Part shown: in pieces, positions 39,959-45,689 of the stretch
Layout: every line of letters begins with the position of its first letter
How positions within the stretch are numbered: the first letter of the stretch is position 1
Assembly: GCF_904067545.1 (NCBI RefSeq)
Contig: NZ_LR881183.1
Span: 1,430,277-1,494,276 of the forward strand
Direction: 5' to 3'
Length of the DNA: 64,000 bases
Origin: Thermococcus camini
Lineage (GTDB): Archaea > Methanobacteriota_B > Thermococci > Thermococcales > Thermococcaceae
The notes under the pieces: generated by a model
The model's input: the letters and a program-made list of their open reading frames with translations, nothing else
The model's database searches: none
Told to the model about the DNA's origin: nothing
Made by a program: the position numbers and the translations under genes

Positions 39959-42346
39959 ATGACCGAAAAGAGGGAAGTTAAGCTCAAGGTCGCCTCTGCT
40001 TACCAGAGGGACGTTGGAAGGGGAATAGTTAGGATAGACCGCAAAGCCATGCGCGAGATCGGTGTCCAGAGCGGCGACATCATCGAGATAATCGGAACCA
40101 AGAACACAGCAGCAGTTGTCTGGCCGGCCTATCCAGAAGATGAAGGACTGAGCATCATCAGGATGGACGGAACAATCAGGAAGAACGCCGGCGTCGGCCT
40201 CGGCGATGAGGTTACCGTGAGGAAGGCCGAGGTCAAGGAGGCGAAGAAGGTCATCGTTGCACCAACCGAGCCAATTCGCTTCGGCCACGACTTCGTTGAG
40301 TGGTTCCACAGCAGGCTCGTCGGAAGGCCCGTCGTTAGAGGAGACTACATCAAGGTCGGAATCCTCGGCCAGGAGCTGACCTTCGTGGTAACCGCGACGA
40401 CCCCGGCTGGAATAGTTCAGATAACCGAGTTCACCGAGTTCCAGGTCAGCGAGAAACCCGTTAAGGAGGTCTCCAAGACCGCCGCCCTCGGCGTCACCTA
40501 CGAGGACATCGGCGGCCTCAAGGACGTCATCCAGAAGGTCAGGGAGATGATTGAGCTCCCGCTCAAGCACCCGGAGATATTCGAGAAGCTCGGCATCGAG
40601 CCGCCCAAAGGTGTCTTACTCTACGGCCCGCCGGGAACCGGTAAGACCCTCCTGGCAAAGGCCGTTGCCAACGAGGCAAACGCGCACTTCATAGCCATCA
40701 ACGGGCCGGAGATAATGAGCAAGTACTACGGAGAGAGCGAGGAAAGGCTTAGGGAGGTCTTCAAGGAGGCTGAAGAAAACGCGCCGGCGATAATCTTCAT
40801 AGACGAGATCGACGCGATAGCTCCAAAGAGGGAAGAGACCCACGGCGAGGTCGAGAAGCGTGTCGTTTCACAGCTGCTCACGCTGATGGACGGTCTGAAG
40901 AGCCGCGGAAAGGTCATAGTCATCGGCGCAACCAACAGGCCAGACGCCATTGACCCAGCCCTGAGGAGGCCAGGAAGGTTTGACCGCGAGCTTGAGGTCG
41001 GCGTTCCCGACAAGACCGGCAGGAAGGAGATACTTCAGATACACACCAGGGGAATGCCCATCGAGCCGGAGTTCAGAAAGGGCAGGGTAATGGAGATACT
41101 GGAGGAGCTTGAGAGAAACGACGCCTACCGCGAGAGCGCAGAGAAAGCTTTGATGAAGGTCAGAAACGCGAGGGACGAGGAGATTCCGGAGATACTCAGG
41201 GGCGTAGACGAGAAGCTCTACGACGAGGTCAAGGCCAGGCTCATCGATGGACTCCTCGAAGAGCTGGCCGAGGTCACCCACGGCTTTGTTGGCGCTGACC
41301 TCGCGGCTCTGGCAAGGGAAGCTGCAATGGCCGCACTCAGGAGGCTCATCAAGGAGGGCAAGATTGACTTCGAGGCCGAGCACATACCCAAGGAGGTCCT
41401 TGAGGAGCTCAGGGTCACCAGGAAGGACTTCTACGAGGCCCTCAAGATGGTCGAGCCGTCGGCTCTGAGAGAGGTGCTCCTTGAGGTTCCGAACGTCCGC
41501 TGGGACGACATAGGTGGCCTTGATGAGGTCAAGGAGGAGCTGAAAGAGGCGGTGGAGTGGCCGCTCAAGTACCCGGAGGCCTTCCTCGGGCTCGGCATAA
41601 CCCCGCCGAAGGGCATACTCCTCTACGGTCCGCCGGGAACCGGCAAAACGCTACTCGCAAAGGCCGTCGCCAACGAGAGCGAGGCCAACTTCATCGCCAT
41701 CAAGGGCCCAGAGGTGCTCAGCAAGTGGGTTGGCGAGAGCGAGAAGAACATCCGCGAGATATTCAGGAAGGCGAGGCAAGCTGCTCCGACGGTGATATTC
41801 ATAGACGAGATAGACGCAATAGCACCGCGCAGGGGAACCGACGTGAACAGGGTTACCGACAGGCTCATCAACCAGCTCTTGACAGAGATGGACGGAATTC
41901 AGGAGAACAGCGGAGTGGTGGTAATAGCGGCAACCAACAGGCCCGACATCATAGATCCGGCCCTGCTCAGGCCTGGGCGCTTTGACAGGCTCATACTCGT
42001 TCCCGCTCCAGACGAGAAGGCCAGACTGGAGATATTCAAGGTGCACACCAGGAAAGTTCCGCTGGCAGAGGATGTCAGCCTCGAAGAGCTTGCCAAGAGA
42101 ACCGAAGGCTACACCGGTGCCGACATTGAGGCGGTGGTGAGAGAGGCCGCTATGCTCGCCATGAGGAGAGCGCTCCAGGAGGGCATAATAAGGCCCGGCA
42201 TGAAGGCCGACGAGATAAGGGGAAAGGTCAAGGTGACGATGAAGGACTTCGAGGAGGCCATGAAGAAGATAGGCCCCAGCGTGAGCGAGGAAACCATGGA
42301 CTACTACAGGAAGATTCAGGAGCAGTTCAAGCAGTCCCGCGGTTGA
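39959..42346 (+). CDS. cdc48: CDC48/VCP-type AAA ATPase (paralogue 2)
   Basis: A 795-residue double-AAA unfoldase, closer in length to the hsp20-linked AAA protein of Pyrococcus than is paralogue 1. N domain residues 1-180, then D1 ([20 protein letters not shown]) and D2 ([20 protein letters not shown]) ATPase modules. The same lid insertion of about 60 residues is seen ([15 protein letters not shown] to THGFVGADL). Position after hsp20 fits the Pyrococcus heat-shock pair. The start follows ATGGAGGTGGTAAAAG. It probably supplies unfolding during heat stress. Confidence 0.96.
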
Positions 42347-42929: not shown

Positions 42930-43079
42930 TCAGGCCACCCACTCGAGCTCATACCCCCTCGCGCGAAGCTTTTCCATTTCTTCTCTTGCTATCCTCTCCG
43001 CCTTCTTTATGTCGTTGGTGACGACTATCCTCTCCCTGGGGAGGGTGTTGTTCATGTAGTAGACGATCCTCACGAGCAT
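42930..43079 (-). CDS. 49-residue microprotein A
   Basis: A 49-residue ORF (MLVRIVYYMNNTLPRERIVV then TNDIKKAERIAREEME). The pattern is beta strand, strand, long amphipathic helix and a final strand ending ELEWVA. GGTGAT lies just upstream of the ATG and a TATA (TTTTTAAATCC) near 43130. Its fold pattern matches microprotein B at 43273-43422, with the helix ARRFA/AERIA and an ELE end. This suggests a small alpha-beta domain family, function unknown. Confidence 0.62.
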   Translation of the reverse strand: MLVRIVYYMNNTLPRERIVVTNDIKKAERIAREEMEKLRARGYELEWVA

Positions 43080-43272
43080 GCCATCACCCCAGTATATCAC
43101 TGCGAGTGATGAAGAAATTCAAAGGATTTAAAAACATTGTTGCATCCATTTTGACATCAAAGTACATGATAGTCCATACTAAAACATACCTTGTTGTACA
43201 TACTTGTCCCGATAGCCACAAGCGTCGCCCCGCCGCAGAGAGTGCCAGAAAGAATAATTTGGGAAAGGAGAA

Positions 43273-43422
43273 TCACTCGATCTTCTCCAGCTCGAAGACC
43301 CTTGCGTCCTTCCGCTTTAATTCCCGAACCGCGAAACGCCTTGCCTCGTCAGCAGTGTCGGTTTCGAATATTATGGTTTCGCCGTGGTTTTCTCCACCGT
43401 GAAGGGTAAGGGCCCATTTCAT
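43273..43422 (-). CDS. 49-residue microprotein B
   Basis: A 49-residue ORF (MKWALTLHGGENHGETIIFE then TDTADEARRFAVRELKRK), ending ARVFELEKIE. It follows the same strand-helix-strand plan as microprotein A. GGTGAT precedes a double ATG, the second of which is used here for spacing. It is divergent from the JAMM gene and shares its TTATAA-centred promoter element, so the two may be co-regulated. No function is recognised. Confidence 0.62.
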   Translation of the reverse strand: MKWALTLHGGENHGETIIFETDTADEARRFAVRELKRKDARVFELEKIE

Positions 43423-43456
43423 CATATCACCGACAGAACTTCGTCACATCTCCAAG

Positions 43457-43465
43457 CTTTATAAG
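43457..43465. promoter_or_regulatory. Shared bidirectional TATA element
   Basis: CTTTATAAG with a palindromic TTATAA core. It lies about 26 bases from the JAMM gene ATG on the plus strand (leaderless) and about 35 bases from microprotein B on the minus strand, so one TATA may serve both divergent genes. Confidence 0.5.
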
Positions 43466-43486
43466 TCTAACGGGGGAATTTTAACT

Positions 43487-43891
43487 ATGAGGCTGATAAT
43501 CCGACAAGTGGATTTAAAAGAGATCATCAAAATGACAGAAAAGAGCGACGTCGAAATATGCGGCTTCCTCTTCGGCCACAGGGACGGGGAGCGGATTGAA
43601 GTCGAGGAAGTCCGCTTCGTCCCCAACAGGTTGAGTGGAGATGCCTTCGAGATGGAGCCGCTCGAGATGGTGAGGGCAATCGACGAGGCCGAGGAGAAAG
43701 GACTTGAGGTGGTAGGCATCTTCCACTCCCACCTGAAGTGTCCGCCGAGGCCGAGCGGCAGGGATTTAAGGGGCATGAGGCTCTGGCCGGTCGTCTGGCT
43801 GATAGTCGACGAGAAGGGAAACTACGGGGCGTATGTGCTGGAAGGGGACAAAATCCGAGAGGTAGAGGTTGAGGTCGTAGGGACAGAATAA
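43487..43891 (+). CDS. JAMM/MPN+ metallopeptidase
   Basis: A 134-residue JAMM-domain protein. All zinc-site residues are present: E23, then H80, H82, S90 and D93 in the H-x-H-x7-S-x2-D array (IFHSHLKCPPRPSGRD). Archaeal JAMM enzymes remove ubiquitin-like SAMP modifiers from proteins or process the SAMP C-terminus; Bacterial ones act on ThiS-like carriers. The nearby CDC48 and MoeA/MobB make both roles plausible, but no SAMP gene is in the window. Transcription seems leaderless from the CTTTATAAG element at 43457-43465. Confidence 0.9.
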   Translation: MRLIIRQVDLKEIIKMTEKSDVEICGFLFGHRDGERIEVEEVRFVPNRLSGDAFEMEPLEMVRAIDEAEEKGLEVVGIFHSHLKCPPRPSGRDLRGMRLWPVVWLIVDEKGNYGAYVLEGDKIREVEVEVVGTE

Positions 43892-44006
43892 ACATTGTTA
43901 TTTTCAGACACAGCTTCTTCGGATGAGATATTTAAGGTGTTGATGGATTAAAGTCATTAAATGTTTTAAGCATTTACAACCAATTACTGACTAGGTGAAT
44001 GAGAGT

Positions 44007-44195
44007 ATGGAAGACATCACGATAAAAAAACTCATTGGGGAACTGGATATTAGGACGGTCCGAGAGCTGCTTGAGGCCGAGGAAGTAAAGCGGGAGATAA
44101 AGGAGCTGACTAAGACTGTAAGACGGGGAATGTTTGGGGAAGGGGGAACAAACGAGGAATTCAGGAGACTTAGATCCGAGGTGAACGAGCAGTGA
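44007..44195 (+). CDS. Putative antitoxin
   Basis: A 62-residue charged, helical protein (MEDITIKKLIGELDIRTVRELL) that overlaps a PIN-domain toxin at TGATG. No DNA-binding fold is obvious, but the C-terminal RRGMFGEGGTNEEFRRLRSEV could wrap the toxin. ATG 44007 follows GGTGA at 43994; GTG 43995 is an alternative. Identity rests on the coupled order with the PIN gene. Confidence 0.62.
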   Translation: MEDITIKKLIGELDIRTVRELLEAEEVKREIKELTKTVRRGMFGEGGTNEEFRRLRSEVNEQ

Positions 44196-44671
44196 TGTTC
44201 GTTGATACAAACGTCTTTTACCATTATGTGACCAACGGCGAGTTTGCGGATCTCGCTGAGGAAATCCTAACATCAAAAGAACCCAAGATAACTTCAGATA
44301 CAGTTGTTGATGAATTTCTCTTCATTGTTATCAGGCGAGAGGTCCGAAGGAACTTCGGCATAAATTCCACACTCAACCTTAAGGAGAAACTTGCAAAAGA
44401 TGGCTCCCTTTTAGAATTTGTTTACAAAACAGGAAAGCGAGCACTTGCGGTTTTCGAGAGCTTTGATGTCATGATCGTTCCGGACTCCCGTGATTGGGCG
44501 AAGATTTTGGTTCTCATGAAGTACTACAGAATGCTACCCCACGATGCGAGGATAATAGCCACTGCCCTCGAATATGGAGCGAAGAAAGTGGCAACCTTTG
44601 ATACCGACTTTAGGGAAGCTAAAGAAATAGTAGAGCTCTCTCCGGACGCTTTCTGGGAATCTAAGTCCTAA
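44195..44671 (+). CDS. vapC: PIN-domain toxin (VapC-like)
   Basis: A 158-residue PIN ribonuclease starting MFVDTNVFYHYVTNG, with the first metal Asp at position 4. Further acidic positions appear in DTVVDEFLF, LPHDARIIATAL and ATFDTDF. It overlaps the upstream antitoxin. A GTG three bases upstream is also usable. The base composition is more AT-rich than in the flanking housekeeping genes. Confidence 0.86.
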   Translation: MFVDTNVFYHYVTNGEFADLAEEILTSKEPKITSDTVVDEFLFIVIRREVRRNFGINSTLNLKEKLAKDGSLLEFVYKTGKRALAVFESFDVMIVPDSRDWAKILVLMKYYRMLPHDARIIATALEYGAKKVATFDTDFREAKEIVELSPDAFWESKS

Positions 44672-45411: not shown

Positions 45412-45627
45412 TCACAGGAGCATTATCCAGTTGAGGTCGTCTATCTTCACCATGAGGGCCTTGGCCTTGTTTCCGGCTATGTCCACCACGTCCCTCAGGA
45501 GTATGGCCTCCTCATCGAAGTCCTCCAGGATTCCGGTGAAGGAATGCTCGTTGCTCACAGCTAAGGCCACCCTCTTCCCCTTCCAGGTCTCAAGGGTCTT
45601 ATCGAGCAGGTACTGCTTCTCGCCCAT
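45412..45627 (-). CDS. LSm/Sm-like RNA-binding protein
   Basis: A 71-residue Sm-fold protein: LETWKGKRVALAVSNEHSFTGILEDFDEE is the Sm1 motif, and KALMVKIDDLNWIMLL the Sm2 region. Such proteins form six- or seven-membered rings that bind U-rich RNA. ATG 45627 follows GGAGGTGAGCGC. It lies ten bases upstream of mobB, and could be co-transcribed with it. Confidence 0.86.
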   Translation of the reverse strand: MGEKQYLLDKTLETWKGKRVALAVSNEHSFTGILEDFDEEAILLRDVVDIAGNKAKALMVKIDDLNWIMLL

Positions 45628-45689
45628 GCGCTCACCTCCAGAAACCAAAAGCCTATAAGGCTTTTAACCGTTTCCGGTTCGGTGATAGA

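Follow-up and report, generated by a model that had tools for sequence, protein, structure and literature searches.

Two 49-residue microproteins, A and B, encoded side by side next to a JAMM peptidase gene in Thermococcus camini, are paralogues, and comparison of their promoters among related genomes shows that a predicted TrmBL1/Tgr operator is conserved over the predicted transcription start of A, whereas B has none. Judging from this regulatory signal, A is most likely a sugar-induced microprotein. The TrmBL1/Tgr regulon itself is already known; what is new is a family of microproteins, one of which appears to belong to the glycolytic regulon. Positions are those of the window, the whole 64,000-nt stretch of DNA that was analysed, and the features discussed are listed in Table 1.

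Table 1. Positions and properties of the features discussed (window coordinates)
Feature	Position	Strand	Details
Cdc48-type AAA ATPase	39959..42346	+	adjoins A and B more constantly than any other gene
Microprotein A	42930..43079	-	49 aa; strand-strand-helix-strand; 62/94 genomes; dN/dS 0.11; AF2 pLDDT 92.4
A ribosome-binding site GGGGTGAT	43083..43090	-	kept ahead of ATG 43079 in relatives
Thermococcales Glycolytic Motif (predicted TrmBL1/Tgr operator)	43095..43111	-	CATCAC-TCGCA-GTGATA; one mismatch; in 55/60 A promoters
A TATA element TTTTTAAA	43127..43134	-	kept ~27 nt upstream of motif centre
Microprotein B	43273..43422	-	49 aa; paralogue of A; 53/94 genomes, one genus only; dN/dS 0.15; AF2 pLDDT 94.1
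B ribosome-binding site GGTGAT	43426..43431	-	
TATA element common to B (-) and JAMM (+)	43457..43465		
JAMM/MPN+ peptidase	43487..43891	+	P. furiosus JAMM1 orthologue; Prok-JAB E 4e-17; PDB 5LD9 E 5e-41; 134 codons

A and B are genuine protein genes

The preliminary description had placed two 49-aa open reading frames on the complementary strand, A at 43079-42930 and B at 43422-43273, and had named a lack of conservation in other genomes as evidence against them. Both frames are present at these positions, and of the 94 Thermococcaceae genomes searched for conservation, 62 contain A and 53 contain B. For sequence pairs with unsaturated synonymous sites, the median pairwise dN/dS in the proposed frame was 0.11 (A) and 0.15 (B), indicating strong purifying selection, compared with 1.0-2.4 in the other two forward frames and 0.24-2.2 in the antisense frames. 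The mean entropy at codon third positions was 1.25 bits (A) and 1.27 bits (B), versus 0.42-0.65 bits at the other two positions. Because both genes are kept across the family and are under frame-specific purifying selection, their conservation is far above chance. GGTGAT-type ribosome-binding sites lie ahead of both genes, the conserved start of A is the ATG at 43079, and no Rfam element was found. Since A and B are short and intergenic, they might be regarded as chance readings within a conserved non-coding region; we give this practically no credence, given that dN/dS is low only in the proposed frame, that third-position entropy is about twice that at the other positions or more, and that both genes have ribosome-binding sites, confident predicted folds and no Rfam match. 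These comparisons show that A and B are genuine protein genes. Neither is mentioned in the main texts of the transcriptome papers on T. kodakarensis and T. onnurineus.

A and B are paralogues with a common predicted fold

Pairwise BLASTP gave no alignment between A and B, and profile methods were needed to compare them. The two profiles gave an ungapped alignment spanning columns 15-48 (hhalign probability 88%, E = 3e-6), in agreement with the similar helices and endings pointed out in the preliminary description. The decisive test of relatedness was a position-blind search of whole genomes with the A profile, in which the sole second match was the adjoining B gene (twelve genomes, E < 0.01). 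The relationship proposed earlier is thus borne out by both profile comparisons, on which we conclude that A and B are paralogues. A joint A+B profile matched exactly two places in the T. camini genome up to E = 10, namely A and B, and there is therefore no third detectable copy in this genome. Positions A27, A31 and E44 are invariant in both proteins and A40 is nearly so; the invariant residues of A are R4, Y7, P14, E16, A27, A31, E44 and E46.

AlphaFold2, with only the window and seven database loci as input, modelled A and B with the same fold (mean pLDDT 92.4 and 94.1, respectively), consisting of a strand at residues 2-8, a strand at 15/16-20, a helix at 24-37/38 and a strand at 42-48, which agrees with the order of strand, strand, helix and strand previously read from the letters. 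A and B are therefore predicted with high confidence to share a three-strand, one-helix fold. In Pfam and NCBIfam, no family exceeded its curated cut-off for either protein and only sub-threshold matches were seen; the two proteins thus make up a family that lies outside every model of these two collections. A match of the A profile to FtsH (E = 0.001) covered 20 residues of a single helix and was judged to be a chance helix match.

Foldseek found no significant structural match for either model. The closest neighbours of similar size, phage Dmd antitoxins in the case of A (TM 0.76-0.77) and T7 Gp2 in that of B (TM 0.73) (PDB 5HY3, 5I8J and 4LK0), resemble A and B in size and in their strand-strand-helix-strand order, and are stoichiometric binders of a larger enzyme. 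However, A and B have no sequence similarity to them; their genes are chromosomal and conserved, the searches revealed no viral relatives, and the matches have E > 1, indicating a common small architecture and providing no evidence of homology. We do not class A as a Dmd-like antitoxin: the match had a Foldseek E of 1.1 and a probability of 0.92, with no sequence match and no toxin partner identified. Searches for relatives found none of A or B in viral contigs, none of B in plasmids, none of A in phages and none outside Thermococcaceae in the phylum sample; extra matches to B in genome contigs came from Thermococcus MAGs only.

The helices of B are basic and the A model weakly matches ribosomal protein LX (6skf_BT, TM 0.58), and on this ground A and B could be small RNA- or DNA-binding proteins whose target is nucleic acid or the ribosome. 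We regard this as unlikely: A is acidic to neutral at its conserved positions, the invariant residues hold no conserved basic patch, and the LX match is not significant.

A conserved predicted glycolytic operator in the A promoter

The sequence TATCAC-N5-GTGATA is the Thermococcales Glycolytic Motif, which is bound by TrmBL1 in P. furiosus and by Tgr in T. kodakarensis (PMC4158304, PMC4706686), and a TrmBL1 operator located downstream of the TATA element confers repression when sugar is absent (PMC4706686, PMC4158304). In the A promoter, the motif sits between the TATA element and the ribosome-binding site and overlaps the predicted transcription start. This site, the strongest of the clues, had escaped the preliminary description. 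When 60 A promoters were compared, 18 contained a perfect motif, 25 had one mismatch and 12 had two (55 of 60 with two or fewer), and the motif nearly always started 28-36 nt before the A ATG; dinucleotide shuffles of the A promoters reached this level in 0.5% of cases. By the same threshold, the motif occurred upstream of B in only 1 of 53 promoters, which is little above shuffles, and the best site of the T. camini B promoter has four mismatches. At least one match with two or fewer mismatches was also present in 54 of 100 shuffled windows; a motif in a single window is therefore unremarkable alone, and the evidence is comparative.

In an alignment of 36 diverse A promoters, the core half-site positions carried 1.5-2.0 bits and the middle of the N5 spacer 0.1-0.3 bits. 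As this alignment was anchored on the motif, its independent parts are the contrast with B and the position of the TATA element, which emerged unprompted ~27 nt upstream of the motif centre. Against control of A through this site, no good motif was seen in the A promoters of G026, G036, G069, G078 and G087, although all five genomes have TrmBL1.

The T. camini genome contains 21 motif sites with at most one mismatch, compared with four for the reversed pattern, and many of the sites inspected precede genes for ADP-dependent phosphofructokinase, glucan phosphorylase, GH57 amylases or maltodextrin functions, names that were assigned by reading translations. A TrmBL1 orthologue is encoded in this genome, where it adjoins glycogen-synthase- and pullulanase-type genes, and in 83 of 94 relatives. 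TrmBL1 is nearly universal in Thermococcus, and its presence therefore does not separate carriers of A from non-carriers. Several high-quality genomes, such as G013, G020, G028, G040 and G042, retain TrmBL1 and lack A, indicating that A is dispensable.

With an operator in the repressing position downstream of TATA that is kept across four genera, A resembles the members of the TrmBL1/Tgr regulon; unlike these, which are mostly enzymes and transporters, it has 49 residues and no catalytic signature. Judging by its promoter, A appears to belong to the archaeal glycolytic regulon as a small, non-enzymatic protein. The published ChIP-seq of P. furiosus could not have revealed A if this species falls in the A-less genus g3. 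Elsewhere, at locus L165 (564-833, + strand), a small protein MVEFKLRFGDRKWYVRRLVEASSVEEAEEKAKRYAELMNRGEVKWEFSYV with a strand-strand-helix-strand look lies near a weak match to the glycolytic motif; the A+B profile misses it.

JAMM is a neighbour of A and B

The JAMM gene encodes a complete catalytic motif, HxH-x7-S-x2-D in the HSH form (HSHLKCPPRPSGRD), together with an upstream glutamate in VEICGFLFG. It is the orthologue of the P. furiosus JAMM1 desampylase (PDB 5LD9 and 5LDA), a system of which A and B are not part and to which they are not obligately linked; its product scored 65.6 bits against the NCBIfam model for haloarchaeal desampylase, below the cut-off of 130.

B is divergent from the JAMM gene and has its TATA element in common with it, as the preliminary description had noted: the gap between the two genes is 64 bp and holds a single TATA element, and in about 40 genomes 58-65 nt separate the two start codons. 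With only a single TATA element in so short a space, the B and JAMM promoters overlap and JAMM is probably leaderless. The B promoter, including a CCGTTA element, is kept even where JAMM is gone. B promoters also contain, just downstream of TATA (43433-43456, - strand), a TTTG...TGACA-like element, often as a TGACA direct repeat with an 8-nt period, which is possibly the operator of some regulator.

The close divergent layout, the fixed spacing and the common TATA element, together with the direct divergence of A and JAMM seen in genera g2, g4 and g5, would fit A and B being dedicated partners of the JAMM desampylase, that is, inhibitors, adaptors or substrates. However, A and B are kept in G018 and G041, in which no JAMM gene was found; G019, G029 and G069 have an intact A-B pair but carry JAMM at a distant site, close to an ABC protein; and A, B and JAMM are each in a separate place in G023 and G027. 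Conversely, JAMM is present in nine high-quality genomes that lack both A and B. Among 74 high-quality genomes, presence was not associated (Fisher tests that ignore kinship: A/JAMM, P = 0.10; B/JAMM, P = 0.64; A/B, P = 0.17). Furthermore, the predicted regulation of A follows sugar genes, and the shared intergenic region gives JAMM no such operator. The earlier proposal that A and B modify, inhibit or serve as substrates of the JAMM protein is therefore not upheld, as both persist beside cdc48 without JAMM and their presence is uncorrelated with it; we consider a dedicated partnership quite improbable. The link is weak, and JAMM is probably a neighbour of A and B and not their dedicated partner.

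Like SAMPs and other ubiquitin-like modifiers, A and B are small and lie beside a desampylase-type gene, and they partially resemble half of a beta-grasp fold (protein G B1, TM 0.6-0.7). They differ in having 49 residues, three strands and no C-terminal diglycine, which was absent from all 113 sequences (A ends in VA or I, and B in a single residue such as E, D or G); the previous judgement that they are not typical SAMPs therefore holds.

In six genomes JAMM is located away from the cdc48 site, and in five of these it lies near an ABC protein gene (L113, L119, L121, L123 and L129). The distant-site copies form one clade in the JAMM tree, as would be expected if JAMM had been relocated or replaced once, within one group.

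The cdc48-mobB interval

The constant setting of A and B is not JAMM but the interval between cdc48 and mobB, and further neighbours include genes for a membrane protein with weak similarity to DUF996, for a PIN-domain protein and for a MobB-FeS protein. The constancy of cdc48 as a neighbour, even where JAMM has left, would be expected if A and B were adaptors or regulators of the adjoining Cdc48 ATPase in protein unfolding and turnover. We hold this to be decidedly unlikely: cdc48 and A are convergent genes on opposite strands, in G023 both A and B are more than 2.7 kb from cdc48, and genera that lack A and B do well with Cdc48. The shared position may reflect inherited gene order only.

A 66-aa open reading frame followed by a PIN-domain protein (43995-44671, + strand; E = 1.6e-17) resembles a VapBC toxin-antitoxin pair and is found between JAMM and mobB in some relatives only (G001, G031, G042, G053 and G070). 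Beside mobB, a 78-aa protein (45412-45648, - strand) gave a weak, sub-threshold match to the RimP C-terminal (SH3-like) domain.

Distribution and history

B is confined to genus g1 (Thermococcus), whereas A is found in g2, g4 and g5 as well, where B does not lie between it and JAMM. Given that A is directly divergent from JAMM in the genera with A and without B, A is likely the older copy, and the simplest reading of the gene orders is that B is a tandem copy placed between A and JAMM. Alternatively, B may have been lost outside g1. B is kept alone in G020 and G059. In genus g3, which we take to be Pyrococcus, JAMM is mostly present and both A and B are absent. Among the genomes named here and above, G018 is presumably T. 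gammatolerans and G023 T. kodakarensis; G025 is presumably T. onnurineus.

Proposed function of A and B

Our preferred reading, to which we assign a probability of about 0.5, is that A is a sugar-induced stoichiometric modulator of one protein and that B is a differently controlled paralogue. In the absence of sugar, TrmBL1 would occupy the operator and block A; when maltodextrins are present, TrmBL1 would leave and A would be made alongside the glycolytic enzymes. By stoichiometric binding, A would then modulate a single partner protein, most likely one of sugar metabolism. The contact might be made by the sheet face with the invariant R4, E44 and E46, which the alternation of residues along the strands suggests should be exposed. 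B, which lacks the operator and has its TATA element in common with JAMM, would bind in the same manner to a related or a different partner. We favour binding and modulation by A because it has no catalytic signature and its similar-sized structural matches, Dmd and Gp2, are stoichiometric binders; against this, these matches are weak (E > 1) and generic. The place of A beside cdc48 might also hint at a different role.

A more elaborate possibility, which we rate as a long shot, is that A and B form a sugar-switchable pair competing for one partner, which might be the JAMM1 desampylase, Cdc48 or an enzyme of central metabolism, with B constant and A sugar-induced. If so, a protein of 49 residues would let TrmBL1 pass carbon status directly to enzyme activity or protein turnover. 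Metabolic tuning by small proteins is well known in bacteria and little studied in archaea. T. kodakarensis, taken here as G023, is amenable to genetics and has both microprotein genes as well as the regulator, and the idea of a sugar switch is therefore directly testable in this species. In G023 the A-B-JAMM cluster is fully dispersed, with no cdc48 within 2.7 kb of A and with B ~200 kb away.
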